Below are positions 17,713 to 38,163 of a stretch of DNA of 64,000 bases, piece after piece (positions within the stretch are counted from its first letter, which is position 1; each line of letters begins with the position of its first letter). The stretch comes from Plantactinospora endophytica. Its GTDB lineage: Bacteria > Actinomycetota > Actinomycetes > Mycobacteriales > Micromonosporaceae. The position numbers were made by a program, and so were the translations under genes. The stretch covers positions 1-64,000 of the forward strand of contig NZ_BONW01000008.1 in NCBI RefSeq assembly GCF_016862915.1, written 5' to 3'. Under the pieces are notes generated by a model. That model was not told the DNA's origin. It was given only the letters and a program-made list of their open reading frames with translations, and did no database searches.

Positions 17713-17869
17713 GCGTCAGACGGCAGGCGCCCAGTGGTAGGCGTCCACCGCTGGCGGTCCGGCGGTAGACGTCCGGCGATAGGTATCCGGCCGACGGCGG
17801 TTGGCCGGCGGTTGACAGTGGACGGTCGAGGCAGCACGGCGAGCTGGGACGAGACGGGAGAGGACGACG

Positions 17870-17902
17870 ATGGCAGGCAACCTGGTCGGGAGCGCCGCGT
17901 GA
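17870..17902 (+). CDS. possible 10-residue leader peptide overlapping hydrolase start
   Basis: ATG at 17870 with a strong GGGAGAGGA upstream opens MAGNLVGSAA and stops at TGA 17900-17902. That TGA overlaps the GTG start of the alpha/beta hydrolase (GTGA). It may serve for translational coupling or be a relic of a lost gene start. A similar mini-ORF precedes the dioxygenase at 19347. Confidence 0.35.
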   Translation: MAGNLVGSAA

Positions 17903-18609: not shown

Positions 18610-18611
18610 CG

Positions 18612-19100: not shown

Positions 19101-19345
19101 GGAACGGGCCGGGCGCCGGCACGTCGGACGGGCCGGTGGTGGAGGAGTTCTCCGCCACCTGGACGCCCGGCTCGACCGACCTGACCGGTACCTGCTTCTG
19201 CGGTGCCCGGCACCAGGACCCGGACCCGGTCGCGATGTGGGACTGGCTGGACGCGCACCCCGAGGGCCACCACGCCACCCCGACCGCGACCGGCGCCCCG
19301 CACGCGGCCGAGGCCGACGGGAAGAGCCGACAGGAAGGACCGTGA
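19097..19345 (+). CDS. small protein of unknown function with CFCG motif
   Basis: An 82-residue protein, not recognised. It has a central TGTCFCGARHQDPDPVAMWD segment with WLDAHPEGHH, giving two Cys and several His that could bind a metal. The C-terminus is Ala/Thr-rich. The start overlaps the SDR stop (ATGA), so it belongs to the same transcript. Placement immediately before the ring-cleavage dioxygenase suggests an accessory role, but nothing in the sequence proves one. Confidence 0.55.
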   Translation: MRNGPGAGTSDGPVVEEFSATWTPGSTDLTGTCFCGARHQDPDPVAMWDWLDAHPEGHHATPTATGAPHAAEADGKSRQEGP

Positions 19346-19346
19346 C

Positions 19347-19376
19347 ATGAGCACATCGGGGAGCCGGCATGGCTGA
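19347..19376 (+). CDS. possible 9-residue leader peptide overlapping dioxygenase start
   Basis: ATG at 19347 is preceded at good distance by AGGAAGGA and encodes MSTSGSRHG before a TGA at 19374-19376, which lies 3 bases inside the dioxygenase gene. Out of frame with that gene. Possibly a coupling leader; low certainty. Confidence 0.3.
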   Translation: MSTSGSRHG

Positions 19377-20619
19377 GATCGTCGCGGCGGCTGCCGCCGT
19401 CCACGCGCCGCAACTGATCAGCCGGCCGCAGAACGAGGAGCTGGAGAAGCTCGACCGGGGCACCGACGCGCTGCACCGGCTGGGCCGGGTACTCGACGAG
19501 ACGTCGCCGGACGTCCTGCTGGTGATCGGCCTGGACCACCTGGAGACGTTCTGGCTCGGCGCGGCACCGACCTTCACCGTCTTCGTCGGCGAGCACGCCG
19601 AGGCGGACTACGCCGGACGGGTGCACCGGAAGGTGCCGGTGCACACCGACCTCGCGGTGGACCTGCTCAACGGACTGGTCGCCCGGGACTTCGACATGAC
19701 ATTCTCCCAGGAGGGCATCCTCGGGCACGCCTTCCTCACCCCGTTCCAGTACGTCCTCCAGGATCGCCCGATCCCGGTGGTGCCGCTGCTGGTCAACGTC
19801 TACCTGCCGCCGCTGCCGAGCCCGCGCCGCTGCTACGCGCTGGGTCGGGCGATCGCCGACGTCCTGGCGTCCCGCCCCGAGCGGGTCGCCGTACTCGCCA
19901 GCGGCGGGATGTCGCACTTCCCCGGCACCGCCCGCTACCACGACCCGCAGCTCTCCTTCGACGAGTGGGTGTTGCAGGAGGTGGGCGCCGGCCGCTGGCA
20001 GGAACTACTGGACCTGACGCCGGTACAGCTCGACGAGGTGGGGGAGGGGGAGTTGCTCACCTGGTTCGTGATGCTCGGCATCACCGGCGAACTGCCCGCG
20101 TCGATGCTCTCCTACCAGGCGCTCTCCCACCACGGGCACGGCGTGGTGCAACTGGTCCCGCCGGTAGCCCCGGCCGCTCCGGCGCCGGAGCCGACCGTGC
20201 CGCGCTACGGCGGTCACGTCTTCACCCAGACCGACTACCGCTGGTACCGGTTCCCGGAGCCGAGCAGTTTCGCGCTGAACCGCCTACTGCACCAGATCAT
20301 CGTGAACCCGGGCTTCCGGTCCGAGTTCGTCCGGGACCGGGCCGCCGTGGTCGGTGCGGCCGAGCTGACCGATCCGGAACGCCGGGCGCTGCTGGCCGAG
20401 GGCTTCGACGAACTGGTCGGCGTCGGTGCCCATCCGCTGCTCGCACTCTCCGCCCGACAGGTCGTGGCGCTGGAACTGCACCGGCCGGCACCGGTCGCTA
20501 CCAGACCGGCGCTCACCGCTGCCGCGACGGCGCCCACCGCTGCCGCGACGGCGCCCACCGCTGCCGCGACCGCGCCCGCACAGGACGCGGCGCTGACAGC
20601 GGGCGGCGAGAACCCGTGA
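19369..20619 (+). CDS. fused LigB-LigA extradiol dioxygenase, gallate dioxygenase-like (GalA/DesB)
   Basis: Residues 1-~270 are a class III extradiol (LigB) domain: VHAPQLISRP with the first iron His, VIGLDHLETF, GILGHAFLTP and SGGMSHFPG. Residues ~290-385 are a LigA-type domain: YRWYRFPEPSSFALNRLLHQ, DPERRALLAEGFDEL, GAHPLL. This single-chain order is that of gallate dioxygenases GalA and DesB (~420 residues), which open the ring of gallate. LigAB encodes the two parts separately. The GalB-like and LigK/GalC-like genes of the cluster support the assignment. The last ~30 residues are 7-residue repeats (TAAATAP). Substrate (gallate, protocatechuate or a methyl ether) is inferred. Confidence 0.82.
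   Translation: MAEIVAAAAAVHAPQLISRPQNEELEKLDRGTDALHRLGRVLDETSPDVLLVIGLDHLETFWLGAAPTFTVFVGEHAEADYAGRVHRKVPVHTDLAVDLLNGLVARDFDMTFSQEGILGHAFLTPFQYVLQDRPIPVVPLLVNVYLPPLPSPRRCYALGRAIADVLASRPERVAVLASGGMSHFPGTARYHDPQLSFDEWVLQEVGAGRWQELLDLTPVQLDEVGEGELLTWFVMLGITGELPASMLSYQALSHHGHGVVQLVPPVAPAAPAPEPTVPRYGGHVFTQTDYRWYRFPEPSSFALNRLLHQIIVNPGFRSEFVRDRAAVVGAAELTDPERRALLAEGFDELVGVGAHPLLALSARQVVALELHRPAPVATRPALTAAATAPTAAATAPTAAATAPAQDAALTAGGENP
20511..20573 (+). repeat. in-frame 21-bp tandem repeat (3 units) in dioxygenase tail
   Basis: Three near-identical 21-bp units (accgctgccgcgacggcgccc) encode TAAATAP three times at the extreme C-terminus, beyond the LigA-like domain. Likely slippage-derived. Confidence 0.8.
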
Positions 20620-20727: not shown

Positions 20728-21963
20728 CTACCGCAGCGAGATCACCAGCTGCTGGGCCCGGTGGTCGGAGACCCCGCCAGTCGGGCCGCCGAACCCGTAG
20801 GAGTGCACCCGGACGGCAGCCGAGACGAAGGCCCAGTCCAACCGCCACCAGCGGGGCCAGCCGGAACTGTCCGACCAGGTCGCCGGATAGCGCGCCGACG
20901 ACGCGTAGCTGGCGTCCCGGAGCCGGTCCGGCACCTTCGCCAGGTCGCCCATTGCCGGGCTGGTGTTCAGGTCACCGGCGACCAGCATCGGATGCGGGTT
21001 CGCCGCCACGTCCCGGGCCAGCGCCCGCCACTGCGGCTCCCGCAGCGTGTGCTGCTCCCGGATCACCCGGTAGAACTCGCCGCCCAGCGGGCTGTGGTCC
21101 GGCACCAACTGCACCGGCATGTGCAGGTTGTACACCGACAGCACCCGTCCCGCCCCCACGTCCAGGTCGGTACGGAGCACCTTGTACCGCCAGTGGTCCG
21201 CCGAACCCCACTTCGGCGGCGGCATGTCCGGGGCGTCCAGCGGCAGCCGGCGCAGGATCGGATGTCGGGACAGCGTCACCAGCTCGCCGGCCACCGCGAC
21301 CTCGAACCCCGGAAACTCGGTACGCAGCCGGGCCAACTCCGCCTCGCCCGGCCCGGCCGAGTGCTCGTACCAGTACTCCTGGAGCAGGTAGACGTCGGCG
21401 TCGGCGGCCCGGAGCTGCGCGTACATTCCGTCGGTCTGGCCGCCCTCGTCCCAGTAGCCGGGGTTCCAACTGAAGATCCGGACCGCGTCGGGCGGGGCCG
21501 GACCGTCGCCGCCGGCCAGCCCGCGCAGGTTCAGCCCGGACAGCGGCCCGCCGAGCAGCAGCGCGGCGGCGGCGAGCATCGCCACCGGCCCGCGCGACCG
21601 GCGACACGGCGAAGCGCCCACGGCCAGCACCACCGGCACGACGAGGAAGGCCGGCGGCGGGATCGCGTCCACCGCCAGCCACAGCCACCACTGTCCACTG
21701 AGCACCAGGTGGGCCACCGTGAACGCCAGCCACAGCCCGCCGGCGGCGACCAGGGCGGTGTAGAGCCACCACCGCCACCCGCGCCGCCGCCGGCCCGCCC
21801 GCACACCCTCGATCGCCGCCGCACCGGCTCCCGCCGCGTCGAGCGACGGGGTGACGCCGGTCGATGCGGTGTCGACGGCCCGTGCGGTGTCGACCCTCGG
21901 GGGGCTGTCGGCGGCCGAGCGGGCGGGCAGCAGTCCGTCGCTGCCGGGGGCGGCGACCGTCAC
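20728..21963 (-). CDS. membrane-anchored endonuclease/exonuclease/phosphatase-family protein
   Basis: A 411-residue protein. A disordered N-terminus is followed by three membrane segments (WWLYTALVAAGGLWLAFTVA; WLWLAVDAIPPPAFLVVPVV; VAMLAAAALLLGG), then an EEP phosphodiesterase domain from ~155: VRIFSWNPGY, LQEYWYEH, GDLNTSPA and final SDHRAQQ. The domain would face outside and could hydrolyse phosphodiesters of lipids or nucleotides. The GTG start overlaps the stop of the glycosyltransferase at 21960 (GTGA), making it the last gene of the glycan operon. Cleavage of a lipid-phosphate-sugar link is one possible role, inferred. Confidence 0.78.
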   Translation of the reverse strand: MTVAAPGSDGLLPARSAADSPPRVDTARAVDTASTGVTPSLDAAGAGAAAIEGVRAGRRRRGWRWWLYTALVAAGGLWLAFTVAHLVLSGQWWLWLAVDAIPPPAFLVVPVVLAVGASPCRRSRGPVAMLAAAALLLGGPLSGLNLRGLAGGDGPAPPDAVRIFSWNPGYWDEGGQTDGMYAQLRAADADVYLLQEYWYEHSAGPGEAELARLRTEFPGFEVAVAGELVTLSRHPILRRLPLDAPDMPPPKWGSADHWRYKVLRTDLDVGAGRVLSVYNLHMPVQLVPDHSPLGGEFYRVIREQHTLREPQWRALARDVAANPHPMLVAGDLNTSPAMGDLAKVPDRLRDASYASSARYPATWSDSSGWPRWWRLDWAFVSAAVRVHSYGFGGPTGGVSDHRAQQLVISLR

Positions 21964-23018
21964 GCCGGACCCCGCAGCGGGGTCGGGTCGACCGGGAACG
22001 AGGCGTCGTAGAGCCGGCGGAACGGGCCGGAGGCGAGCCACTGCACCGCACCGGTGGCGACCCCGGCGGTGATGGTGACGTTGACCAGGAAGTGCAGCCC
22101 GGCGAAGAAGACCAGGAAGGGTACGCCGTGCCGGCGGCGGACGAAGCCGTACATGCCGGCGTCGCAGGCGAGCGAGGCGGTCAGCAGGGCGGCCGGGGCG
22201 AGCAGCCCCCACGGGCCGAGCAGCAGCGGCACCGCCAGCGCCGGCAACACCCCGAACGCGGCGAGGCTGCCCCAGGCCCTGGCGGCGGTCTCGAAGCCCT
22301 GGCCGAAGCGGCGGGCCCGGGCGTACAGCGGAATCCGTAGCCGGCCCCGGTGGAACAGCTTGCGCAGCAGCCCGCGCAGCGCGTGGTCGTGGTCGTGCCG
22401 GCCCCGGACCAGCGAGGTGAGCACCAGGCGGTAGCGCCGGCTCAGCCGGTAGCCGTAGTCGACCTCCTCGGTGTGCCGCAGCTCCGGGTTGAACGGGCCG
22501 ATCTCCTCGAAGACGTGCCGGCGCAGCACGCAGACCGCCGGGAACAGGAACGACACGTCACCTTCCGAGCTGATCGACCAGTAGTGATATTGCAGGCCAC
22601 GATAGCGGGCCACCGCCGTGTCGTGCAGCAGCGGCTCGGGATCCTCGATCCCGCAGACCGCCCCGATCCGGGAGTCGCCGAGGATCAGCCGTACCGCGTT
22701 CGCCACCGCGTCCGGCGCCAGCACCAGGTCGGAGTCGACGTAGCAGATCAGCTCGCCGGTGGTGTGCGCGGCGCCGATGTTGCGGGCCCGGCCGCAGCCG
22801 CCGTTGCGTCCGGTGCTGACCACCCGGACGCCGAGCGCCTCGGCCACCGCCACCGACTGGTCGGTCGAGCAGTCGTCGACCATCAGGATCTCGATGTTCG
22901 GGTACGTCTGGTCCAGGATCGACCGCAGGCACAGGTCGAGCGACTCGGCGTAGTTGTAGTTCGGCACGATCACCGAAACGAGCGGGCCGTCGCCCGGTCG
23001 GGCACCGTTCACCGTCAT
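21960..23018 (-). CDS. family 2 glycosyltransferase with C-terminal membrane helices (paralog 1)
   Basis: A 352-residue GT2: VSVIVPNYNYAESLDLCLRS nucleotide-sugar site, VDDCSTDQS, and the DXD-type CYVDSDLVL. Then an acceptor region with EEVDYGYRLSRRY and RGRHDHDHALRGLLRKLF, and three membrane segments before the end (FLVFFAGLHFLVNVTITAGV). The same architecture, including the His-Asp motif and the FFxxxHFLxN helix, recurs in the genes at 23015, 27633 and 32119, so all four form one family. It acts at the cytoplasmic membrane, presumably on a lipid-linked acceptor. It overlaps its neighbours on both sides. Confidence 0.85.
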   Translation of the reverse strand: MTVNGARPGDGPLVSVIVPNYNYAESLDLCLRSILDQTYPNIEILMVDDCSTDQSVAVAEALGVRVVSTGRNGGCGRARNIGAAHTTGELICYVDSDLVLAPDAVANAVRLILGDSRIGAVCGIEDPEPLLHDTAVARYRGLQYHYWSISSEGDVSFLFPAVCVLRRHVFEEIGPFNPELRHTEEVDYGYRLSRRYRLVLTSLVRGRHDHDHALRGLLRKLFHRGRLRIPLYARARRFGQGFETAARAWGSLAAFGVLPALAVPLLLGPWGLLAPAALLTASLACDAGMYGFVRRRHGVPFLVFFAGLHFLVNVTITAGVATGAVQWLASGPFRRLYDASFPVDPTPLRGPA

Positions 23019-24028
23019 CGGGTGGCCACCTCCGGCCGGTCGTAGAGGCCACGGAACCGGCCCGAGGCGAGCCAGGCGGTCACCCCGGAGATGGCGGCGA
23101 CCGCGATCACCAGGTTAAGGAAGAAGTGCATCGCGACGAAGTAGCCCAGGAACAACACGCCGCGTTCCCGGCGGACGAACCGGTACATCGGCAGGTCGCC
23201 GGCGAGGCAGGCGGCGAGGACGGCCAGCGGCACCACCAGGAACGCCAGGCCGAACAGCACCGGCAGCGCCACGGTCAACACGGTCAGCAGGGCGGCCACG
23301 CTGACCCAGGCGCGCGGCCCGCTGCTCAGCCCGCCGGGAAACTCCGGCTTGCGGGCGTACATCGGGATGTGCAACGCGGTGCGGGTGAAGACCTTGCGGA
23401 CCAGCACGCCGAGGTCGGCGTCGTGGTCGTGCACGCCGCGCACCCGGGGGGAGAGCCAGATCTGGTACCGCTGCGCCAGCCGCATCCCGTAGTCCGCGTT
23501 CTCGGTCTCCCGCAGTCGCGGGTTGAACGGCCCGATCTCGGCGAAGACCCGGGCCGGGACCGCCAGCAGTGCGGTGTAGAGGGTGAAGATCCGGCCCTCG
23601 TCCGCGATCAGCCAGTACGACTGCTGGAGGCAGCGGTACTCCTCCAGCAGGCTGTCCCGGACCAGGGGCACCGGGTCGTAGTTGCCGCAGATCGCCCCGA
23701 TCTCCGGGTCGGCCGTGAGCAGCTCGACCGCGTTGGCCACCGCGTCCGGCTTGGCGGCGACGTCCGAGTCGAGGAAGAACAGGATCTCGCCCTGCGCCTG
23801 CGCCGCGCCCAGGTTCCGGGCCGCCGCCGGTCCGGAGTTGGTCGGGGTACGCAGCACCCGCGCACCGTACGACTCGGCGACCGCGACCGAGTCGTCGGTG
23901 GAGCAGTCGTCGACCACGATCAGTTCCAGGTGCGGGTAGGTCTGCGCCCGCACCGAGCCGAGGCACAGTCCGAGCGCCCTCGCATAGTTGTAGTTCGGCA
24001 CGATCACCGAGACGAGCGGTGTGTTCAT
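23015..24028 (-). CDS. family 2 glycosyltransferase with C-terminal membrane helices (paralog 2)
   Basis: A 337-residue close paralog of the 21960 product: VSVIVPNYNYARALGLCLGS, VDDCSTDDS, FFLDSDVAA, then ENADYGMRLAQRY, RGVHDHDADLGVLVRKVFTR, and three membrane segments ending FLGYFVAMHFFLNLVIAVAA. The two adjacent copies look like a tandem duplication that diverged. Start ATG 24028 overlaps the UbiA-like stop (24025), so the operon is tightly coupled. Sugar donor and acceptor are unknown. Confidence 0.85.
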   Translation of the reverse strand: MNTPLVSVIVPNYNYARALGLCLGSVRAQTYPHLELIVVDDCSTDDSVAVAESYGARVLRTPTNSGPAAARNLGAAQAQGEILFFLDSDVAAKPDAVANAVELLTADPEIGAICGNYDPVPLVRDSLLEEYRCLQQSYWLIADEGRIFTLYTALLAVPARVFAEIGPFNPRLRETENADYGMRLAQRYQIWLSPRVRGVHDHDADLGVLVRKVFTRTALHIPMYARKPEFPGGLSSGPRAWVSVAALLTVLTVALPVLFGLAFLVVPLAVLAACLAGDLPMYRFVRRERGVLFLGYFVAMHFFLNLVIAVAAISGVTAWLASGRFRGLYDRPEVATR

Positions 24029-24993
24029 CGATCCATCCAAGTCAGCAGGGCGGGATAGCGGGCACCGAGTTCCGCCAGGGTCAGCGTGGTGGTGATCAGG
24101 ACGGCACTGGCCACGATCATCCGGTCGCGCAGCAGGGCCCGGATCGGATCCCCGCCGGACTGCCGGACCAGTACCGCCTGGAGATAGCGGAACGCGGCGA
24201 GCAGGCCGAGCGGCACCACCACGGCGAGGGTGGCGGGGCGCCAGGGCCCGAGCGGCGCGTCGGTGTTCAGGTAGAGCAGGAAGGTGGTGCTGGCCAGCGC
24301 CGTGTTCAGCCCCAGCAGGTGGTCGGCGAGCAGCACGTTGTAGCCGGCCAGCGCCGGCCGGTGCGCCGTACCGGCGGTGGCCAGTTCGTGCCGCCGCTTG
24401 CCGAGGATCAGCACCAGGCAGCCGGCGAAGACGGCGGTGAGCAGCAGTCCCGACGGTGCCGCCCCGGTGGCCGCGTACCCTTGGAGGACCCGCAGCACGA
24501 AGCCGGCGGCGACCACGCAGATGTCCAGCATCGGCAGGTGTTTGAGCCACCGGCTGTAGGCGATGCTGAGTCCGAGGTAGCCGACCAGTGGCCACCAGGA
24601 CAGGGCCGGGCCGAGCAGCACCATCCCGAGCAGCAGCCCGGCCAGTCCGACCGCGAGCAGCCAGGCCAGCGGGACCGGGACGAGTCCGGCGGCGACCGGA
24701 CGGTACCGCTTGACCGGGTGGGTGCGGTCCAGCCGGCGGTCCACGATGTCGTTGACGACGTAGATCGTCGAGGCGGCGACCGTGAACACCAGCACGGCCC
24801 AGCCGGTACGCAGCACCGCCGACGCGCTCCACAGTGGTGTGTCGAGCAGCGCCAGCGGTACGGCCAGCAGGTTCTTGACCGCGTGGCCGGGGCGGGTGAG
24901 TACGACGAGTTGCCGGGCCAGCGCGGGCGTCCGGAGACCGCGCGCGGGAACGGCCGGTACGGCGGTCTCGACGACGGTCTCGACGGCGGTCAC
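24025..24993 (-). CDS. UbiA-family prenyltransferase, decaprenyl-phosphate phosphoribosyltransferase-like
   Basis: A 322-residue membrane protein with about eight helices. The first Asp-rich motif YVVNDIVDRRLDRTHPVKRY and the following RPVAAGLV match the DPPR-synthase branch (NDxxDxxxDxxHPxKrxRP), which joins PRPP to decaprenyl phosphate, better than quinone prenyltransferases. The second motif region is YSRWLKHLPMLDICVVAAGF. It would supply a lipid-linked pentose for the epimerase, aminotransferase and GT2 enzymes around it; this pathway is inferred. The GTG at 24993 is preferred because of GGAG upstream. A GTG near 25011 is possible. Confidence 0.78.
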   Translation of the reverse strand: MTAVETVVETAVPAVPARGLRTPALARQLVVLTRPGHAVKNLLAVPLALLDTPLWSASAVLRTGWAVLVFTVAASTIYVVNDIVDRRLDRTHPVKRYRPVAAGLVPVPLAWLLAVGLAGLLLGMVLLGPALSWWPLVGYLGLSIAYSRWLKHLPMLDICVVAAGFVLRVLQGYAATGAAPSGLLLTAVFAGCLVLILGKRRHELATAGTAHRPALAGYNVLLADHLLGLNTALASTTFLLYLNTDAPLGPWRPATLAVVVPLGLLAAFRYLQAVLVRQSGGDPIRALLRDRMIVASAVLITTTLTLAELGARYPALLTWMDR

Positions 24994-25031
24994 CGTCGAC
25001 TCCGATCGATTGAAGACACCTACGACTCCGA

Positions 25032-26051
25032 TCAGAAGAAGATCTTCGCGAGGGAGAGCACGCCCTGCCGCCACGGGTCACGGCTGGTCCGCCCACCCCG
25101 TCCCGGCCGCGCCCGGTGGCGTTCCGCGCGCCACCACTCGTACGTGCGCAGGATGGCGTCCTCGTTGGACAACTTGGGGGCGAAGCCGAGCCGCTCGACG
25201 GCCTTGTCGATGCTGACGTAGGAGTCGTGCCGGAGTTTGTGCAGCAGCCGCCCGTAGACCGGGGAGAGCCGGCTGCGTTCCAGCAACTCCAGGGTGAACA
25301 GCGCCGGCCGGGCGGGTACCCCGACCACCCGCCTGCCGTGCCCGGCGGCGTCCAGCACCGCCTGGAAGTCCTCGCGCAGCGTACGGAACCGCTCGGCGGC
25401 GAGGTTGTAGGTGTCGTTCGCCAACTCGTCCGGTGCGGTGAGCACGGTCATCACCGCGTCCACCAGGTCGTCGACGGCGAACATCTGGATCCGCACGTCG
25501 CCCCGGCCGAGCACCGGGAAGTTCCGGCCCTCCTCGGCCCACTCGAACAGCATCGCGAACAGCCCCATCCGGCCCGGTCCGAGGAAGGTCTTCGGCCGCA
25601 GGATCGCCACCGGCAGCCCACCGGCCCGGTACCGTTCGGCGGTCTCCTCGGCCGTCGCCTTGGCCGCGCTGTACGTGTCGACCGGCTCCCGGGGGTGCTC
25701 CTCCGGCGTCGGCACCTGCCGGGGCAGCCCGTAGACGGCGGTGGACGAGACGTGCAGTACCCGGTCGACCCGGGCCTTCCGGGCCGCCCGCAGCACGTTC
25801 TCCGTCCCGTCGACGATGATCGAGCGGATCTCGGCGGCCGGATAGCTGGGCAGCGCCGCCGCGCAGTGCAGCAGTGCCGTCGCCCCGGAGGTGGCCCGGT
25901 CCATCACCGCCGGGTCGCGGATGTCGCCGACCACGGTGACGCCGGCTTCGGCCCGCAGGTCCACCCCGCGCACCTCGTGCCCGTCGGCGGTGAGCCGCTC
26001 GACCAGCCGGGAGCCGAGCATCCCGGCGGCCCCGGTCACGGTGATCACCAC
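25032..26051 (-). CDS. NAD-dependent epimerase/dehydratase
   Basis: A 339-residue extended SDR. VTGAAGMLGSRLVERL is the NAD loop, VLHVSSTAVYG has the catalytic Ser, and DTYSAAKATAEE the YxxxK pair. The C-terminal half (RIQMFAVDDLVDAVM, NDTYNLAAERF) is that of nucleotide- or lipid-sugar epimerases. It lies between the UbiA-like and aminotransferase genes. It could oxidise or epimerise a UDP-sugar or a polyprenyl-phosphate pentose in the way of DprE2. GTG start at 26051 overlaps the aminotransferase stop by 7 bases. Confidence 0.85.
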   Translation of the reverse strand: MVITVTGAAGMLGSRLVERLTADGHEVRGVDLRAEAGVTVVGDIRDPAVMDRATSGATALLHCAAALPSYPAAEIRSIIVDGTENVLRAARKARVDRVLHVSSTAVYGLPRQVPTPEEHPREPVDTYSAAKATAEETAERYRAGGLPVAILRPKTFLGPGRMGLFAMLFEWAEEGRNFPVLGRGDVRIQMFAVDDLVDAVMTVLTAPDELANDTYNLAAERFRTLREDFQAVLDAAGHGRRVVGVPARPALFTLELLERSRLSPVYGRLLHKLRHDSYVSIDKAVERLGFAPKLSNEDAILRTYEWWRAERHRARPGRGGRTSRDPWRQGVLSLAKIFF

Positions 26052-27454
26052 AGTGAACCCACCTTCTGTGCGACGAACCGGGTGACCAGCTTGTTGAGGC
26101 CCTGGTCGAGCACCTCGCCGAGCGCGTCGGTGGCCCGCTGCACGTCGGCCGGGTCGGTGACCAGGGACGGGCCGAGAATCAGTGGGTTACGGCCGTTGAG
26201 GGTGTAGTAGGTGAAGATGTCGTGGTCGCGGTAGAGCGCCTGGATCACCGCGCAGGTGACCAGCTTCGCCTTGAACCTCGGGTCCCGGGCCATCCCGCTG
26301 GGGGCGAGCCGGGCGACCAGGTCGAGGATCTTCGGCCCGCCGTCGATCTGTACGCCCCAGAGCGCGCCCGCCCCGGCGACCCGACCGACCGCGTCCGGGA
26401 ACTCCTTGGCCAGCCGCTTCAGCGCCGGCTCCAGCACCCGCTCCAACTCGCGGGCGCGCGCCGGGTAGTCGTCCTCCACCACGATGTTGATCGCCTCGAG
26501 CGCGGTGACGCACTCCTCGCCCATGCCGTAGTAGGTGGTACTCGTGCTCTGCAGAAGCGCGTCGGTCAGGTTGTCGTACGCCTTGCGGAAGACCTTTTCC
26601 CGCGCGACGAATGCAGAAATCGATGACTTCCCGCCGCCGAATGACTTCGATGTGGTAAGGACGTCGGGCACCAGACCCGGATACCTCATGAAGTAGAAGA
26701 GGCTGCCGGTCTTACCCCACCCGGTGTAGATCTCGTCGAATATGAGCACGATGTCGTGCCGGTCACACAGCTCGCGAATGCCGCGCAGGAAGTCTTCGTC
26801 GCACCACGTGACCGTCGAGGCGCTGAACGGCTCGACGACAAGAGCGTAGACGTCGCCGGGGTGCGCGGCGATGGCCTCGCGGACGGAGTCCAGATTCCCA
26901 TAGGTAAATGGAACTATGCCGGGAATGGTGGGAAAGTCGAACGATGGTTGACCGGTCAGCCCACCCGATCCGAGCAGCTTTCCGTGGAACCCGCAGTCGG
27001 CCCGCAGGATCGTCCCGCGCCGCCCGCCGTGGTACTTGTACGCCAGCTTCACCGCCCCCTCGACCGCCTCCGCACCCGAGTTGGGCAGGAAGGACATCTG
27101 CAGGTCAGCGGGGAGAAGCTGGGCCAGGTTGTGGCCGAGCGCCGCCAGGTACGGCGAGAAGTACGTCTTGTGCACCTCCATCCGCCGCTGCTCCGCGAAC
27201 CGTTGCCGGGCCGCCAGGATGCGCGGATGGTTGTGGCCGTGGTTGAGTACGCCGACACCGCCGGTGAGGTCGAGGACACGGCGGCCGTCACGCAGCACCA
27301 GGTACGCGCCTTCGGCGTGGTCGACCAATTCCCGGCCGAACCCGAACGAGGTCATCAGGCTGACCTGGCTCGCGTTGACGTAACGACGATAGAGGTCGTG
27401 CACCTCGCGTACGGTGAGTCGATCGCAATCGGACAGGCTGACCAGATTGGGCAT
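26045..27454 (-). CDS. class III PLP-dependent aminotransferase
   Basis: A 469-residue fold-type I enzyme. GGVGVLNHGHNHPRILAA, FLPNSGAEAVEGAVKLAYKY, LIFDEIYTGWGKTG and the PLP-lysine in LTTSKSFGGGKSS (about residue 270) are the class III hallmarks. Relatives include ornithine, diaminobutyrate and sugar or polyol aminotransferases. With a flanking epimerase and glycosyltransferases it may aminate a keto-sugar or provide an amino acid-derived headgroup; the substrate is unknown. It is the first gene of the minus-strand glycan operon (27454 to 20728) and diverges from the GT2 at 27633. The middle of the gene is somewhat less GC-rich than its neighbours. Confidence 0.85.
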   Translation of the reverse strand: MPNLVSLSDCDRLTVREVHDLYRRYVNASQVSLMTSFGFGRELVDHAEGAYLVLRDGRRVLDLTGGVGVLNHGHNHPRILAARQRFAEQRRMEVHKTYFSPYLAALGHNLAQLLPADLQMSFLPNSGAEAVEGAVKLAYKYHGGRRGTILRADCGFHGKLLGSGGLTGQPSFDFPTIPGIVPFTYGNLDSVREAIAAHPGDVYALVVEPFSASTVTWCDEDFLRGIRELCDRHDIVLIFDEIYTGWGKTGSLFYFMRYPGLVPDVLTTSKSFGGGKSSISAFVAREKVFRKAYDNLTDALLQSTSTTYYGMGEECVTALEAINIVVEDDYPARARELERVLEPALKRLAKEFPDAVGRVAGAGALWGVQIDGGPKILDLVARLAPSGMARDPRFKAKLVTCAVIQALYRDHDIFTYYTLNGRNPLILGPSLVTDPADVQRATDALGEVLDQGLNKLVTRFVAQKVGSLW

Positions 27455-27632
27455 GCCGTGACGCTATCGATTGCTACGGGATCTTCTCTGGATCGGTGCT
27501 GTACGCAACCTTGACTACCCAAGGCAACGCTTGCCAGTGGAGAAGCGACTGGATAGCTTGGTCGCGACGGAGTAGATCTCGGAATGTCAATGTCCCGGAC
27601 AGTTGTCCCGCGTAGCCGCTGAGGTGCTGCAC

Positions 27633-28634
27633 ATGTCGCCGACCGTGTCGGTCATCATCCCCGTACACAACGGTTCGAAGACTCTACGCGCGTGCCTGGC
27701 GGCCGTCTACGCGCAGCGACACCCGGTGACCGAGGTGATCGTCGTCGACGACGCCAGCACCGACGACACCCGCGAGATCGCCGCCGAGTTCCCGTGCCGA
27801 CTACTGGTCACCGACACGAACGCCGGGCCGGCCGCCGCCCGCAACCGGGGCATCGCGGCCAGCACCGGCGAGCTGCTCTTCTTCCTCGACTCCGACTGCG
27901 CGCCCGAGCCCGACGCCCTGGGCAACGCCCTGGCGATCCTCACCGCGCAGCCGGACGTCGCCTGCGTACACGGCATCTACTCGCTCCGGCCGCTGCACGA
28001 CGACGGGCCGGTCGAGGCGTACCGGCTGCTGCACGGGCACTACTGGCGGCTGCGCAACGTCGGGCGGGTCCGGACCACCCTCTTCGCGGTCTGCCTCATC
28101 CGCCGGGCGGTCTTCACCGACGTCGGCGGATTCGACGAGCGGCTGCGGGCCTCCGAGGACGTCGAGATCGGCGACCGGATGGGCGACCGGTACGGCATCG
28201 TGCTCACCGACACCGTGGTCTGCCGGCACGACGACGACAGCCACCTGGGCCGGCTGCTGCGCAAGCAGTTCAGCCGCTCCCAGCTCCTCGTCCCGGTCGC
28301 CCTCGCCGAGCGGGGGCCGGCCGGCATCCGGGCCAACAGCCCGGCCGGGCTGCTCACCGCCGCACTGGTGCCGACGACCCTGCCACTCGGCCTCTACACA
28401 CCCGGACTGTTACTGGTCCCGCTCGGCCTGCTGGCCCTCTTCGCCGCCGCCGACCCGGGACTGCTCCGTTTCGTGCTCCGCCAGCGCGGCGCCGGCTTCG
28501 CCGTCTTCTTCTACGCCGTGCACCTGCTGGTCCAGTTGACCGTCGTCGCCGGTGCCGTGGTCGGCGGGCTGCGGCACCTGGTGGACCGGGACTTCGGCCC
28601 GGCCCGGCTGCCCGCCGCGAAACCGCTCCGATGA
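27633..28634 (+). CDS. family 2 glycosyltransferase with C-terminal membrane helices (paralog 3)
   Basis: A 333-residue GT2: VSVIIPVHNGSKTLRACLAA, VDDASTDDT, FFLDSDCAP, GIYSLRPLHDDGPVEAYRLL, then CRHDDDSHLGRLLRKQFSRS and three membrane segments (FAVFFYAVHLLVQLTVVAGA). It is closest in middle-region wording to paralog 4 at 32119 (GIYDLTPL..DGPVESYKLL). ATG 27633 has GAGG upstream; an earlier in-frame start at 27603 is possible. It overlaps the CE4 deacetylase (ATGA), so sugar addition and N-deacetylation are probably linked. Confidence 0.85.
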   Translation: MSPTVSVIIPVHNGSKTLRACLAAVYAQRHPVTEVIVVDDASTDDTREIAAEFPCRLLVTDTNAGPAAARNRGIAASTGELLFFLDSDCAPEPDALGNALAILTAQPDVACVHGIYSLRPLHDDGPVEAYRLLHGHYWRLRNVGRVRTTLFAVCLIRRAVFTDVGGFDERLRASEDVEIGDRMGDRYGIVLTDTVVCRHDDDSHLGRLLRKQFSRSQLLVPVALAERGPAGIRANSPAGLLTAALVPTTLPLGLYTPGLLLVPLGLLALFAAADPGLLRFVLRQRGAGFAVFFYAVHLLVQLTVVAGAVVGGLRHLVDRDFGPARLPAAKPLR

Positions 28635-29347
28635 ACGCGGAGCCGGGCGCCGGACGGATCTCCTGGCCGTACCTGTCGGCCCAGGCCCTGCACTACCTGC
28701 TGTTCGCGCTCCGGGCCCAGCAGTTCGCCACCCGCCGGCCGATGCTCGGCGACGGCAACCGGCCGGTCTTCGGCGTACCCGGACACAGCGTGGCGCTGAC
28801 CATCGACGACGGGCCGCATCCCGAGTGGACGCCCCGGATGCTGGACCTGCTCGACCGGCACTCGGTCCGGGCCACCTTCTTCCTGATCGGCGCCAGGGTG
28901 GCCGAGCACCCCGGGCTGGCCCGCCGGATCCACGACGCCGGGCACCTGGTCGGCAACCACTCCATGTCGCACCCGCAGCCCTTCGCGGCGCTGCCACCGG
29001 ACCGACTGCACGCCGAGATCGGGCAGGCGCAGCGGCGCATCGAGGACGCGGTCGGGTTCTCGCCCCGGCTGTTCCGGGCGCCGGGCGGCAACTGGTCGCC
29101 GACGGTACTGCGGGCCACCGCCGACCTCGGCCTGGTGCCGGTGGACTGGACGGTCAACCCCAGCGACTGGCGCAGCCCCGGCGTGCACCGGATCGTCCGG
29201 CGGCTGTCCCGGAGCCGCCCCGGGCACGTCCTGCTCTGCCACGACGGCGGCGGTGACCGGTCGCAGACCGTGGCGGCCCTGGAGACCGTACTGCCCCGGT
29301 TGCTCGACCGGGGACTGCGGTTCGTCGTACCCGCTGCCGAGCGGTAG
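28631..29347 (+). CDS. polysaccharide deacetylase (CE4/NodB family)
   Basis: A 238-residue protein with the NodB domain: ALTIDDGPHPEWTPRMLDLL (catalytic Asp and metal Asp), HSVRATFFLIGARV, VGNHSMSHP (metal His pair HxxxH), LFRAPGGNWSPTVL and the late HVLLCHDGGGDRSQT. CE4 enzymes remove N-acetyl or N-formyl groups from amino sugars, as ArnD does on a lipid-linked amino-pentose. No signal peptide is evident; the N-terminus is moderately hydrophobic. Coupled to GT2 paralog 3, it probably acts on a sugar transferred by that enzyme. Confidence 0.85.
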   Translation: MNAEPGAGRISWPYLSAQALHYLLFALRAQQFATRRPMLGDGNRPVFGVPGHSVALTIDDGPHPEWTPRMLDLLDRHSVRATFFLIGARVAEHPGLARRIHDAGHLVGNHSMSHPQPFAALPPDRLHAEIGQAQRRIEDAVGFSPRLFRAPGGNWSPTVLRATADLGLVPVDWTVNPSDWRSPGVHRIVRRLSRSRPGHVLLCHDGGGDRSQTVAALETVLPRLLDRGLRFVVPAAER

Positions 29348-29441
29348 GGGACGACGTGCCGATCTGTCGTACGACGACGCCGGGCAGTGCCGCCCGGCCG
29401 TGCGGGGGGAAGCCGCGATGCCTGTCTAGGGGGAAGCGAAG

Positions 29442-30248
29442 ATGCCGGAAGACGACCTGATGATCCTGCTCCTCGGCCCGATCCGGGCCGAACGGGGCGG
29501 TACCAACCTCTATCTGGGCACGCCCCGGCAACGGGAGGTGCTCGCCGTGCTGGCCCTGCGCTGCGGAATGGTGATGTCGGTGCCGCAGATCGTCGACGCG
29601 ATCTGGAACGGACGCCGGCCCGACTCGGTGGAGAACATGGTGCACACCTACATCGGCCGGCTGCGCCGGGTGCTGGAACATCCCGGCCGGCCGCCGGCGC
29701 TCGCCCGGGTACTCCGGTCCACCCGTCCCGGGTACACCCTCGACCTGCCGTCGAACGTCGTCGACATCACCCGGTTCGAACACGACGTGAAGGTCGCCCG
29801 GGCGGCCCGGGCCCAGGGCGACCTGTGCCGAGCCCTCGACTCCTTCCAGGTGGCGCTGGCCCGCTGGTCCGGCCTGGCCCTCCAGGAGGCGACCGGACCA
29901 CTGGCCGAGGCGGAACGGATCCGGCTCACCGAGCTGCGTCAGGACGCCGTGGAGGAGGCCACCGGGGTACGCCTGCTGCTCGGCGACGTCGAGAACCTGG
30001 TCTCCGAACTGCGCTGCATGCTCGCCGAACAACCGATGCGGGAACGGCTCTGGGAACTGCTGCTGGTCGTACTCGGCCAGACCTCGCGGCGGGCCGAGGC
30101 ACTCACCGCCTTCGAGGACGCCCGGATCACCCTGGCCGACCGGCTCGGGGTGGAGCCGGGGCACCGGCTCCAGGACCTGCACCGGCGACTGCTGCGCAGC
30201 GAGCCGGTCACGGTACGGCCGTGGTGGGAGCGGCGGGTCCGGGTCTGA
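29442..30248 (+). CDS. small SARP/BTAD-family transcriptional regulator
   Basis: A 268-residue protein with only the two SARP domains. The OmpR-like winged helix is at ~8-100 (LLGPIRAERGG…GTPRQREVLAVLALRCG…VHTYIGRLRRVLE) and the BTAD helical domain at ~105-255 (ARAQGDLCRALDSFQVALARWSGLAL…EQPMRERLWELLLVVL). SARPs bind 11-bp-spaced direct repeats and activate pathway genes. It lies inside the glycan locus and is a likely pathway-specific activator. Its 3' end overlaps the convergent methyltransferase by 41 bp, so simultaneous expression could interfere. Confidence 0.85.
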   Translation: MPEDDLMILLLGPIRAERGGTNLYLGTPRQREVLAVLALRCGMVMSVPQIVDAIWNGRRPDSVENMVHTYIGRLRRVLEHPGRPPALARVLRSTRPGYTLDLPSNVVDITRFEHDVKVARAARAQGDLCRALDSFQVALARWSGLALQEATGPLAEAERIRLTELRQDAVEEATGVRLLLGDVENLVSELRCMLAEQPMRERLWELLLVVLGQTSRRAEALTAFEDARITLADRLGVEPGHRLQDLHRRLLRSEPVTVRPWWERRVRV

Positions 30249-30966
30249 CCCTCGCGGCCGGATCGGCGGCGCGACCCGGCCCACCAGTCGGCTCGGCGGG
30301 ATCCCACCCGACGGATCCGTCCCGTGCCCGGCCATCGACCCGCTCGGCGTCGTCCGGGCGGGTGAGCACGAAGAAGGCGACAGCAGGACCGTCCCCGAGG
30401 CGCGCGGGGACCTCCTCGGTGACCGAGAGGCCACAGGTCCGGATCACCCGGACGAACTCCTCGGCCCGGGTCACGTCGTAGATCTGCACCACGATCCGAC
30501 CGCGCGGCGTGAGCATCGCGGGCAGCCGGCGCAGCAGCGCGGCGGACTCGTCCTCGGTCAGGTAGTAGATGACCTCACGGAGCAGGATCGCGTCGTACCG
30601 CTCCGCCGTGTCGAAGGTCCGGATGTCGGCCACCTCGAACGACGTGTCCGGCCGGCCGAGCGCCCGGGCCGCCTCGATCGCCCGGGAACTGAGATCGACG
30701 CCGTGGTAGTGCCGGTAGCGGCCGGGCGCCAGCGGCAGGTTGACGCTGGTGCCGCAACCCAGGTCCAGGATCGCCGGCCGGGGCGCCCAGGTCTCGATCA
30801 GCGACAGCGGCATCTCGCCGTCGGACATGCCGTCGAGATAGCGCCAGAACCCCAACCGGTACTGCGCGTTCCACCACACGCTGTTCATTCTGGGATTGGA
30901 CCGGATCAGCACCCGGACGGGAATTCGGAACAGATGTGCCACCGCACGGAGGAATGCATTGGTCAT
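30208..30966 (-). CDS. class I SAM-dependent methyltransferase
   Basis: A 252-residue enzyme. Motif I is ILDLGCGTSVN, then GVDLSSRAIEAAR, the acidic ADIRTFD and post-motif LREVIYYLTEDES. The first ~35 residues are hydrophobic/basic and could sit at the membrane. The last ~40 residues are Pro/Gly/Asp-rich and come from the region overlapping the convergent SARP gene. A methylation target in the glycan or lipid product is plausible from context; O- versus N-methylation cannot be told. Confidence 0.82.
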   Translation of the reverse strand: MTNAFLRAVAHLFRIPVRVLIRSNPRMNSVWWNAQYRLGFWRYLDGMSDGEMPLSLIETWAPRPAILDLGCGTSVNLPLAPGRYRHYHGVDLSSRAIEAARALGRPDTSFEVADIRTFDTAERYDAILLREVIYYLTEDESAALLRRLPAMLTPRGRIVVQIYDVTRAEEFVRVIRTCGLSVTEEVPARLGDGPAVAFFVLTRPDDAERVDGRARDGSVGWDPAEPTGGPGRAADPAARVRPGPAAPTTAVP

Positions 30967-31054
30967 GGTGTCACCGACGTTTCTCGACTAGGAATGGCAC
31001 CGTGGACGTTGCGGGAACGGGCTACCGGGGCGGCGTGTCATCGGGCGACGGCAA

Positions 31055-32122
31055 TTACCCGGTCGCGCCGGTCAGCGCGGGGTCGGCGCCCCGACGGAGG
31101 CCGAGCCGGCGCCGGTGCACGTACTCGGCGATGGCCAGCCCGCCGGCACCGACCGCCACCTCGCTGAGCGCGCAGACCAGCCGGCTGGTCAGCACCACCG
31201 GGGCGGCCACCGCCACCGGCATCACGGTGGCCAGCCCGACCATCAGCACCGCCTCCCGTACCCCGAGCCCGTCCGGGACGACCATGACCAGCAGCCCGGC
31301 CACGGTCGCGGCGGCGAAGCCGGCAACACAGACCAGATAGGAACGCAGCGGCGGGGCACCGGCCGTCACCGCCAGCAGCCACAGGTGGTGCCCGGAGATC
31401 ACCCAGGACAGCGACTGGGTGGTGATCGCCCGCCGGATACCGACCCGGGACGCGCTGACCTGCGGCGGTGGCCGCCGGAGCAGTCGTGCCGACGCGGCGA
31501 GCGCCCGGTTGAGCAGCTCCGGACGGACGAAGAGGGCGACCAGCGGCAGTACGGCGAGCAGCATCCACCCGGCCGTCCCGCCCAGCATCGCCGGCCCGGC
31601 GGCGAGCCCGACGGTCATCCCGGTCAGCGCCACCACCGCCCAACTGAGCAGGAAGACCCCGGCCAGCCGGACGGCCCCGACGTTGATCTCCTTGCCCATC
31701 CTGAGCAGCACCGGCAGCGCGACGAACCGGCCCGGGACGAACTTGGCGAGGAAACCGACGAAGAACAGCCGGGCGGCGGTCCACCGGTCCACCGCCGCGC
31801 CGAGGTCGACGAAGAGCGCCTGCCAGGAGTGGTACCCGAGCAGCAGCCCGACCGAGTTGATCAGCAGCGCGCCGGCCAGTACCAGTCCGACCTGGACCGG
31901 GTCGAGCCGTCGCGCCAGCTCCCGTACCGGGGCCCAGTCCTGGTCCCGCAGGAACAGCACCAGCCCGGTGGTGAGCGCCAGCACGAAGACCACGACCAGT
32001 AGCTGGTTGAGCCGCCGCCATCCGTCGGGGTGCCGCTGGATCAGCCGCCGGACCCCGTCGACGACCCGCCCCGCGAACCCGATCACACCCGCCGGACCGG
32101 TCCCGTCCGTCGGCCGGGTCAC
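31055..32122 (-). CDS. flippase-like/LPG synthase-TM family membrane protein
   Basis: A 355-residue integral membrane protein with about eight helices and the family segments LGYHSWQALFVDLG, RLFFVGFLAKFVPGR, ISGHHLWLLAVT and LLVMVVPDGLGVREAVLMVG. This is the UPF0104/MprF-N-like domain, associated with lipid flipping or glycolipid export. It has no MprF catalytic domain. The GTG start overlaps the stop of GT2 paralog 4, so the two are co-translated. It may translocate the glycolipid made by this locus. Confidence 0.82.
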   Translation of the reverse strand: MTRPTDGTGPAGVIGFAGRVVDGVRRLIQRHPDGWRRLNQLLVVVFVLALTTGLVLFLRDQDWAPVRELARRLDPVQVGLVLAGALLINSVGLLLGYHSWQALFVDLGAAVDRWTAARLFFVGFLAKFVPGRFVALPVLLRMGKEINVGAVRLAGVFLLSWAVVALTGMTVGLAAGPAMLGGTAGWMLLAVLPLVALFVRPELLNRALAASARLLRRPPPQVSASRVGIRRAITTQSLSWVISGHHLWLLAVTAGAPPLRSYLVCVAGFAAATVAGLLVMVVPDGLGVREAVLMVGLATVMPVAVAAPVVLTSRLVCALSEVAVGAGGLAIAEYVHRRRLGLRRGADPALTGATG

Positions 32123-33201
32123 CGGGTCGACTCCGGGGACATCGCGGCGACCCGGCCGGTCCGGGACCGGCGGAGCAGCGCCCGGCCCAGCCCGAGCGCC
32201 AGCCCGGCGAACTCGGTCAGGTGGGTCAGGAACCGCATCACCGTGGCGAACAGCAGGAAGCCCGGCCCGCGCTGCCGCAGCGCGAAACCCAGCAACGCCC
32301 GGTCCGCGACCAGGAAGGCGGCCAGCCCGGCCAGCGGTACGGCCAGCAGCCAGGGCGACCAGCCGGCCAGCGGCAGGCCGGTCACCGCGAGCGCGCTGCC
32401 CAGCAACCCGACGACCGACCCGAGGTCGATCCGGTGCGGCGCCCGCCGCTGCGCGGACTCCGGCCCGGCGGGTGTCGGGGCCGGCGCCCAGCGCGCCGCG
32501 ACGACCGCCCCGGCGTACGTCCGGGCTCGGCGGAAGTGCTCCGACAGGTACGGCCACAGCCGGTCCACGTCGTCGTGCCGGCCCACCACCCGATCGCTGG
32601 TACGGATCTCGTACGACGCCGGCAGGCGGGTGCCGAACTCGACGTCCTCCGCGTCGCGCAGCCGTTCGTCGAAGCCGCCGACCAGGGTGAACACCTCCCG
32701 GGGTACGGCGGTCAGCGCGAACATGGTGGTCGCGGTGACCCCGACGTCGCGCCGCCGCCAGAAGTGTTCGAAGAGCAGCTTGTAGGACTCCACCGGCCCG
32801 TCCGGGAAGAGCGGCGTCAGGTCGTAGATCCCCTGTAGCACCCCGCAGCCGGGGTGCGCCCGCAGTTCCGCGACCGCGCCGGCCAGCGCGTCGGGAGCGA
32901 GCGCGATGTCGGAGTCGACGAAGAACAGCAGGTCGCCGCCGGCCCGGTCGGCACCGGCGTTCCGGGCCGCCGAGACGCCCCGGTTCTCCGGGAACGCCAG
33001 CACGGTGCAGGGGAACTCGGCCGCGATCTGCCGGGACCGGTCGGTACTCGCGTCGTCGACGACGATCACCTCGGCCGCCGGGCTGGTCTGGGCGTAGATC
33101 GCCGTGAGACAGGCCCGGAGAGTCTTTTCCTTGTTGTAGTTCGGAACGATGACCGACACCCGGGACAATTGCGGGCCGACGGTGTTGTCGACTGGGGACA
33201 A
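32119..33201 (-). CDS. family 2 glycosyltransferase with C-terminal membrane helices (paralog 4)
   Basis: A 360-residue GT2: VSVIVPNYNKEKTLRACLTA, VDDASTDRS, FFVDSDIAL, GIYDLTPLFPDGPVESYKLL, then a modified RHDDVDRLWPYLSEHFRRAR and a C-terminal membrane part ending FLLFATVMRFLTHLTEFAGL. It is a paralog of the 27633 product. No ATG/GTG fits the start of similarity; TTG at 33201 with GGGGGTGA upstream is the best choice. First gene of a two-gene unit with the flippase-like protein. Confidence 0.82.
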   Translation of the reverse strand: MSPVDNTVGPQLSRVSVIVPNYNKEKTLRACLTAIYAQTSPAAEVIVVDDASTDRSRQIAAEFPCTVLAFPENRGVSAARNAGADRAGGDLLFFVDSDIALAPDALAGAVAELRAHPGCGVLQGIYDLTPLFPDGPVESYKLLFEHFWRRRDVGVTATTMFALTAVPREVFTLVGGFDERLRDAEDVEFGTRLPASYEIRTSDRVVGRHDDVDRLWPYLSEHFRRARTYAGAVVAARWAPAPTPAGPESAQRRAPHRIDLGSVVGLLGSALAVTGLPLAGWSPWLLAVPLAGLAAFLVADRALLGFALRQRGPGFLLFATVMRFLTHLTEFAGLALGLGRALLRRSRTGRVAAMSPESTR

Positions 33202-38093: not shown

Positions 38094-38147
38094 GGCGGCC
38101 AGGATACGACCCCGCCGGATCACCTTCCGGCCGGTCCACCGACGGCC

Positions 38148-38163
38148 GTAAAGAAACCGTAAG
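38148..38163 (+). promoter_or_regulatory. SARP-type direct-repeat box upstream of SGNH hydrolase
   Basis: GTAAAGAAACCGTAAG has GTAA repeated 11 bp apart and differs from the 33325 box at one base. The following CTCCGCAGAGTGG keeps the same spacing as CTCGGCACAGTGG there. It lies between the divergent AfsR-like and SGNH genes. Confidence 0.6.

Follow-up and report, generated by a model that had tools for sequence, protein, structure and literature searches.

A conserved actinobacterial locus proposed to direct SARP-controlled synthesis of a polyprenyl-phosphate-linked aminopentose glycolipid

Introduction

The three-component systems of Citrobacter youngae O1/O2 start with a polyprenyl phosphoribose synthase and a short-chain dehydrogenase/reductase (SDR) with the motifs TGxxGxxG and YxxxK that changes the pentose. 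According to the cited part of PMC11127046, the synthase and one SDR are assumed to yield polyprenyl-phospho-xylose, and gene deletion with complementation showed that the SDR decides the identity of the pentofuranose. Another type of system is represented by HexSDF of Clostridioides difficile and GpgSDF of Pseudomonas aeruginosa, operons of a glycosyltransferase, a deacetylase and a flippase-like protein (the MprF-like HexF and the UPF0104/YbhN protein GpgF) that give amino-sugar glycolipids (cited parts of PMC10128005 and PMC12713373); in C. difficile, resistance to daptomycin and bacitracin depends on this module, as stated in the same part of PMC10128005. Here we describe a locus at positions 20728-33201 of a 64,000-nucleotide stretch (positions 1-64000 of contig NZ_BONW01000008.1, hereafter the window) of the 9.68-Mb genome of Plantactinospora endophytica. 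It is best read as a union of three-component pentofuranose chemistry and a HexSDF/GpgSDF-like module, and we propose, with moderate confidence, that it builds and flips an aminopentose glycolipid linked to polyprenyl phosphate, under the control of a Streptomyces antibiotic regulatory protein (SARP).

Results

Gene content and conservation of the locus

Open reading frame and Pfam analyses of the locus gave 12 genes with intact frames, and every gene named in the initial annotation was found at its place. The Pfam families are those of four family 2 glycosyltransferases (GT2a-d), a UbiA-type prenyltransferase homologue, an NAD epimerase (the SDR), a class III aminotransferase (Aminotran_3, AT3), a carbohydrate esterase family 4 deacetylase (Polysacc_deac_1, CE4), a flippase-like membrane protein (LPG_synthase_TM, PF03706/UPF0104), an endonuclease/exonuclease/phosphatase-fold protein (Exo_endo_phos, EEP) and a SARP (BTAD and Trans_reg_C), confirming the observation of an unassigned glycan locus. 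A class I S-adenosylmethionine-dependent methyltransferase gene (30208-30966, minus strand, PF13649 E 3.2e-13) had been left out of that annotation. Stop-start overlaps, also noted previously, join six gene pairs (GT2b/GT2a, UbiA/GT2b, GT2a/EEP, GT2c/CE4, GT2d/PF03706 and AT3/SDR), but the genes form three transcription units rather than a single one, namely AT3-SDR-UbiA-GT2b-GT2a-EEP on the minus strand, GT2c-CE4-SARP on the plus strand, and GT2d-PF03706 on the minus strand with the methyltransferase gene downstream.

The conservation of this set was assessed at loci selected by the SDR alone (E <= 1e-60 in 150 Micromonosporaceae genomes), which avoided a choice by UbiA. The search gave 51 places. 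Two of them, the one in the window and one in genome G080, were not included; the remaining 49, together with two loci from family f18, make up the 51 loci counted below, and two loci without the SDR (L067 and L081) were left out. All presence counts are lower bounds, because genes may be missed beyond the limits of a 20-kb cut or the end of a contig. UbiA was found at all 51 loci, lying within 300 bp of the SDR in 48, and AT3 at 42, in every case within 300 bp. PF03706 was present at 48 loci and EEP at 47, while at least one GT2 gene was found at 49 and at least two at 45, most loci having two to four. The protein distances of UbiA, SDR, AT3, EEP and PF03706 correlate with r values of 0.65-0.88, compared to a permutation maximum of 0.27. 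The gene set is a real, widely conserved locus type, and the co-occurrence check suggested in the initial annotation shows a conserved unit that is not split up in relatives.

A separate search, started from UbiA in 41 genomes, revealed the complete set with unchanged gene order in five genomes of the same genus (L025-L029) and, with EEP moved to the GT2d end, in a genome of another genus (L030), and comparison of 20-kb regions showed shuffled, more divergent versions elsewhere. The nearest named relative found is Plantactinospora mayteni (L016). Within the Micromonosporaceae, the SDR occurs in 43 of the 150 genomes, several of which carry two or three versions, with three in G111, G130 and G136. 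AT3 (E <= 1e-80) occurs in 36 of the 150, all of them among the 43 SDR genomes. A strict AT3 profile run on 296 genomes of the phylum matched the own genome and two others, both of family f18 and both carrying the SDR as well (67-71% identity).

Several further genes were observed around these loci. An aldo-keto reductase, possibly a further tailoring enzyme, lies in or beside 14 loci (L065 4335-5342 and relatives) as well as at a Streptomyces sp. SAT1 plasmid locus described below. Next to two locus versions, another UbiA-family protein, distinct from the first, is encoded alongside a two-component system (L031 13258-14310 and L061 14531-15754). SDR orthologues of 44-48% identity in family f32 (L084-L088 and L093) occur in many genomes without UbiA or the other genes, with a GC content of 67-70% in two of them.

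UbiA is a putative polyprenyl-phosphate phosphoribosyltransferase

The ubiA-type gene occupies 24025-24993 on the minus strand (alternative start 25074); the start at GTG 24993 is more likely than that at GTG 25074, because a TGA lies just upstream of the equivalent position in three relatives. A UbiA profile of 31 rows searched against the PDB matched, over the full length, the structures of Mycobacterium tuberculosis Rv3806c, the UbiA-type membrane phosphoribosyltransferase of the decaprenylphosphoryl arabinose (DPA) pathway (8j8j, E 2.8e-60; 8j8k, E 1.7e-47; PMC10994848), with other UbiA enzymes at E 9.5e-9 or weaker. Thirteen Rv3806c residues contacting Mg, phosphoribosyl pyrophosphate (PRPP) or the lipid phosphate were taken from the cited part of PMC10994848 and mapped by hand onto the profile alignment. 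Ten of them are identical in the window protein (R22, K28, Y70, N73, D77, K87, R90, Y138, K143 and K191), eight being invariant in 51 sequences, with K87 kept in 50 and K143 in 48. The structural match and the ten retained ligand residues suggest, with moderate to high confidence, that UbiA is most likely a polyprenyl-phosphate phosphoribosyltransferase making polyprenyl-phospho-ribose, so that its description as an enzyme resembling decaprenylphosphoryl-5-phosphoribose (DPPR) synthase, the activity of Rv3806c, holds down to the level of ligand residues.

Homology to Rv3806c could also be taken as a sign of housekeeping pentose metabolism for cell-wall arabinan or teichoic-type synthesis, and Micromonosporaceae are indeed known for xylose and arabinose in their whole-cell hydrolysates. 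We consider this highly improbable. No Emb-type arabinosyltransferase (PF04602) was detected in the own genome, while a Corynebacterium glutamicum control was positive, and the mycobacterial arabinan pathway was rejected on this ground; DprE1 and DprE2 are absent from the 12 locus genes, the rest of the genome not having been searched for them. The presence of the SDR in only 43 of 150 family genomes, with up to three versions per genome, and of a SARP-type regulator at 40 of the 51 loci (any SARP-domain match in the 20-kb cut) likewise speaks against a wall or housekeeping role. A gene-for-gene match to a characterised arabinan or teichoic pathway was not found, given the lack of Emb and the scores of the GT2 proteins, none of which reached the cut-off of any of its listed NCBIfam models.

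SDR, aminotransferase and outlying loci

The SDR (25032-26051, minus strand), an extended short-chain dehydrogenase/epimerase (PF01370 E 8.6e-40), carries TGxxGxxG and YxxxK in all 51 sequences compared (50 loci and the window). AT3 (26045-27454, minus strand, PF00202 E 6.8e-59) keeps Lys270 and Asp240, which we take to be the lysine and aspartate that serve pyridoxal phosphate, in all 42 sequences (41 loci and the window).

Plasmid records provided loci outside this family; two of the five with a UbiA match (Nonomuraea and SAT1) and all three with an AT3 match were examined. In Nonomuraea gerenzanensis, on an 11.85-Mb record labelled as a plasmid, AT3, SDR, UbiA, two EEP genes, four GT2 genes, PF03706 and two SARP-domain matches stand together, with neither CE4 nor a methyltransferase. 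The linear plasmid of Streptomyces sp. SAT1 (L097 8969-16680) carries SDR-UbiA-GT2-EEP-GT2-PF03706-CE4 in one direction, and a different class III aminotransferase (27% identical to AT3) and the aldo-keto reductase lie nearby. On a plasmid of Neorhizobium sp. SOG26 (L098 4991-10739), a HAD-UbiA fusion is followed by an FAD_binding_4 oxidase, an EamA transporter, an SDR and a class III aminotransferase, in this order. The identities to the window proteins are 36% over 140 residues for UbiA, 26% for the SDR and 34% for AT3, and the oxidase is of DprE1 type as judged by PF01565 and resemblance only. A tblastn search of 20 kb at this locus found no relative of EEP, PF03706 or the present GT2 proteins; a phosphodiester glycosidase follows the aminotransferase, and GT2-like and flippase-like frames were seen by eye on the other side. 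It is possibly a Gram-negative aminopentose donor locus. The Neorhizobium trio ties the aminotransferase to the lipid-pentose route, and, with two phyla placing an AT3-type enzyme beside lipid-pentose enzymes, the simplest inference is that AT3 may aminate a keto-pentose on the lipid carrier.

The same plasmid locus bears on another explanation, in which the role of the locus ends with the synthesis and flipping of a polyprenyl-phospho-(amino)pentose donor, to be used outside by a GT-C transferase on an envelope glycan built by the GT2 enzymes. UbiA plus SDR is the documented start of a three-component pathway (cited part of PMC11127046), and the DprE1-type FAD oxidase (PF01565) and EamA transporter of Neorhizobium would fit a donor pathway. 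A further point in its favour is GT87, a family of GT-C type, which lies in or beside eight of the 51 loci as counted by blastp grouping (two of nine confirmed by Pfam). However, Pfam found no GT-C transferase and no MATE transporter among the 12 proteins of the window locus, GT87 was not seen at the other 43 loci, where other GT-C families were not searched, and four membrane GT2 enzymes exceed the needs of a donor pathway. The own genome has nine GT87 matches, all on other contigs. Taken together, we regard this three-component variant as rather unlikely, and continue to favour an aminopentose glycolipid as the product.

Glycosyltransferases, deacetylase and methyltransferase

The four GT2 proteins (GT2a, 21960-23018, minus strand, PF00535 E 3.1e-32; GT2b, 23015-24028, minus; GT2c, 27633-28634, plus; GT2d, 32119-33201, minus) form two pairs of paralogues, GT2a-GT2b with 52% and GT2c-GT2d with about 50% identity, and share 36-42% between the pairs. 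The DXD motif and a catalytic-type Glu are invariant in 33 aligned sequences. A structure model of GT2c (mean pLDDT 78) displays a GT-A domain followed by C-terminal helices at 237-253, 257-273 and 275-320, and a simple hydropathy scan gave at least two hydrophobic C-terminal stretches in each of the four, in agreement with the single architecture (GT-A domain and three C-terminal helices) previously noted for all of them. In a PDB fold search with the GT2c model, the best rows were PcManGT and hyaluronan synthases, with query TM-scores of 0.42-0.64 in the 50 rows listed. This confirms a membrane GT-A fold but assigns no substrate.

Several described families were rejected for these proteins. 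Against the mycofactocin glycosyltransferase MftF (TIGR03965), the four GT2 proteins scored 91, 108, 126 and 99 bits, under half of the cut-off of 280. Nod-factor synthesis was also dismissed, with NodB at 161.5 against 240 bits and NodC at no more than 43.1 against 550, and several generic models match the methyltransferase better than NodS does. The comparison with ArnC/ArnD pairs made in the initial annotation proved weak by sequence, since ArnC gave at most 29.6 bits for the four GT2 proteins against a cut-off of 529; the pentofuranose three-component systems (cited part of PMC11127046) and HexSDF/GpgSDF are closer templates.

CE4 (28631-29347, plus strand, PF01522 E 7e-35), a polysaccharide (N-acetyl sugar) deacetylase homologue, matches loose patterns of the CE4 motifs in all 16 sequences (15 loci and the window), and has no signal peptide by eye and no hydrophobic stretch. 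Its gene overlaps that of GT2c, and a natural reading is that CE4 would act on the sugar that GT2c attaches and remove its acetyl group, in the manner of HexD and GpgD (cited parts of PMC10128005 and PMC12713373). CE4 and the methyltransferase occur at the same 16 of the 51 loci, always with four GT2 genes, and are therefore decorations outside the conserved core.

Flippase-like protein and EEP

The PF03706 protein (31055-32122, minus strand, E 2.4e-9) is fused to a GT2 at six of the 51 loci, linking glycosylation to the flippase-like protein; in the one fusion checked by Pfam, PF03706 scored 25.6 bits, under its cut-off of 33.4. For P. aeruginosa, lipid scramblase activity has been reported for an MprF protein (cited part of PMC11980842).

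These distributions also bear on the idea that two separate functions are merely co-located, a HexSDF/GpgSDF-like amino-hexosyl glycolipid made by GT2c/GT2d, CE4 and PF03706, and a polyprenyl-pentose pathway of UbiA, SDR, AT3 and EEP. The restriction of CE4 and the methyltransferase to 16 loci with four GT2 genes would suit such a division, as would the three-gene organisation of HexSDF and GpgSDF, which lack UbiA in the cited parts of PMC10128005 and PMC12713373. Against it, GT2 and PF03706 accompany UbiA-SDR also at loci that lack CE4 (with totals of 49 and 48 among all 51 loci), and the PF03706 and UbiA protein distances correlate with r 0.77. We consider two independent functions unlikely and retain a single glycolipid pathway as the preferred reading.

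EEP (20728-21963, minus strand, PF03372 E 3.1e-16) keeps N167, E196, D331, N333 and H401 invariant in 34 aligned sequences, residues presumed to be of catalytic type from the DNase-I-like fold. In the same 34 sequences, hydropathy and charge bias revealed three N-terminal hydrophobic stretches with positive flanks, which place the catalytic domain of this membrane-anchored protein, by prediction, outside. Its structure model (mean pLDDT 51) was not used for a fold search. EEP was rejected as a YbhP orthologue, the similarity being marginal and confined to the C-terminal part (hhalign probability 57%).

A candidate SARP operator

The SARP gene (29442-30248, plus strand) encodes a putative transcriptional activator (PF03704 E 2.3e-34, and PF00486). 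The divergent AT3/GT2c promoter contains three CTKKA repeats at exact 11-bp steps (27488-27514, plus strand), and SARPs bind repeats at 11-bp steps (cited part of PMC5930380). This ladder is the only match in the 64 kb, with 0.00 expected, a figure that is too favourable because the motif was chosen after seeing the alignment. Its conservation in divergent loci is better evidence: among 65 intergenic gaps of 53 loci, such ladders were found in 11, every one an AT3/GT2c-type promoter, and, with the window included, 12 of 17 aligned promoters of this type carry one. We thus regard 27488-27514 as a candidate SARP operator. A second large SARP with ATPase and TPR regions (34833-38276) adjoins the locus and was considered as a possible regulator of it; similar large SARPs stand at many divergent loci, and none was found in the close relatives compared.

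Neighbouring genes

Upstream of the locus, 12913-20619 resembles a stretch for the degradation of aromatic compounds, with a sensor kinase, a response regulator, a Rieske-type protein and a hydrolase (all four assigned by eye) and a LigAB-type extradiol dioxygenase (Pfam). The LigB dioxygenase was rejected as part of the locus, as it never adjoins EEP in the close relatives (L016 and L025-L030); in the 20-kb cuts of these genomes it was seen only in L016 and L029, about 4-6 kb off. A neighbour with a beta-lactamase fold was rejected as well, not being found in the same cuts.

Discussion

Proposed biosynthesis

Based on the protein families, the intact catalytic residues, the conserved linkage and the candidate SARP operator read from the DNA, a pathway is proposed in which every substrate, the aminated carbon and the order of the steps are our conjecture. 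UbiA would transfer 5-phosphoribose from PRPP to polyprenyl phosphate at the cytoplasmic face. The SDR may then oxidise or epimerise the furanose ring, and AT3, where present, would capture the keto sugar to give a polyprenyl-phospho-aminopentose; at loci lacking AT3, the epimerised pentose would be the end point of this part of the pathway. The membrane-bound GT2 enzymes would add further sugars; in loci of the window type, one of these may be an N-acetyl sugar, added by GT2c and de-N-acetylated by CE4, with the methyltransferase as a further decorating enzyme. The PF03706 protein would flip the lipid, the direction of flipping and the final acceptor being likewise presumed, and an outward-facing EEP, in a tentatively assigned role, may hydrolyse a phosphate ester or diester, either the pentose 5-phosphate or the lipid-sugar link.

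The initial annotation had proposed the building and export of an amino-pentose- or amino sugar-modified glycolipid. The DPPR-like UbiA, the conserved unit and the precedent of a glycosyltransferase with a deacetylase and a UPF0104 protein are in line with this, but CE4, at 16 of 51 loci, falls outside the core, and the aminated sugar and the export are presumed.

A number of observations weigh against the proposed pathway. Concerning UbiA, three Rv3806c ligand positions are changed (Ser/Asn in place of Gln135, which contacts ribose O3, Pro in place of Lys208 and Phe in place of Tyr157), the protein scores below the NCBIfam DPPR cut-offs (NF008978, 156 bits with a cut-off of 207; its sister models, 131.5 and 115.9 bits with cut-offs of 234 and 474, respectively), and its acceptor could be another lipid phosphate. 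As for the amination, class III aminotransferases mostly use aldehydes or open-chain ketones rather than ring ketones, and AT3 is absent at nine of the 51 loci. In Embleya sp. NBC_00888, AT3 occurs at 60% identity, and the flanking regions of about 11 kb each contain no other gene of the set, which speaks against a strict dependence on them. The Gram-negative trio of UbiA, SDR and AT3 is a single record that was found via AT3, and at 14 other UbiA loci (eight from other phyla, L017-L024, and six weaker ones from relatives, L036-L041) AT3 was found at none and an SDR at one, a Peregrinibacteria contig where UbiA is directly followed by an SDR of 44% identity. The set is also not universal, as searches with UbiA, AT3 and the SDR all gave no match in G006, a genome of the same genus. 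In other families, SDR homologues of about 35-48% identity stood with the other locus genes at none of ten loci, drawn from the 27 other genomes of the phylum with an SDR match. The lack of a GT-C transferase at the window locus, with GT87 at so few relatives, may be counted here too.

Should the proposed pathway be correct, amination would be added to the polyprenyl-phospho-pentose route, which is described for ribose, xylose and arabinose furanoses (cited part of PMC11127046), and this route would be joined to the glycosyltransferase-deacetylase-flippase module of amino-sugar glycolipids. As a speculative and rather unlikely extension, the loci may produce SARP-controlled specialised metabolites built like a cell-wall precursor, in which an amino-oligosaccharide is grown on polyprenyl-phospho-aminopentose by the GT2 enzymes, flipped by the PF03706 protein and cut free outside by EEP. 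A small aminoglycan would then be exported with no need for a dedicated drug exporter; its length would depend on how many GT2 genes a locus has, and where a genome has several loci, each would yield a different member of the class. For the aminopentose glycolipid itself, the conserved genes, together with their local activator and the candidate operator, should make the product directly findable.

Comparison with known systems

The mycobacterial DPA pathway shares with the locus a UbiA-type phosphoribosyltransferase with homology over the full length, but relies on DprE1/DprE2 and the phosphatase Rv3807c, where the locus has an SDR, an aminotransferase and EEP. The likeness to the Citrobacter three-component systems (cited part of PMC11127046) was established by family and motifs, not against the ORF13 sequence. 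Unlike those systems, the 12 locus proteins include, by Pfam, no MATE flippase, GT-C transferase or HAD phosphoribose phosphatase, and the locus adds a class III aminotransferase, four GT2 enzymes, PF03706, EEP and a SARP. The Neorhizobium locus places relatives of UbiA, SDR and AT3 in one row, and differs in its DprE1-type FAD oxidase and EamA protein. In E. coli ybhN-clsB-ybhP, PF03706 and EEP genes are separated by one gene, which is however cardiolipin synthase B, with no glycosyltransferase present and the EEP proteins only marginally similar.

HexSDF and GpgSDF provide the combination of glycosyltransferase, deacetylase and flippase-like protein. However, GpgS belongs to GT4 and HexS is annotated as a monogalactosyldiacylglycerol synthase, compared to the GT2 enzymes of the locus, and in the cited parts of PMC10128005 and PMC12713373 the operons come without UbiA, SDR or aminotransferase and act on hexosyl-diradylglycerol or phosphatidylglycerol. 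Given the different glycosyltransferase families, the resemblance is a likeness of modules, not membership. No pathway with the present gene combination was described in the openly licensed PMC literature searched, an absence that is weak evidence. The enzyme families are all known and the sub-modules have precedents; relative to the literature searched, it is their union that is new, above all the aminotransferase on a polyprenyl-phospho-ribose route.

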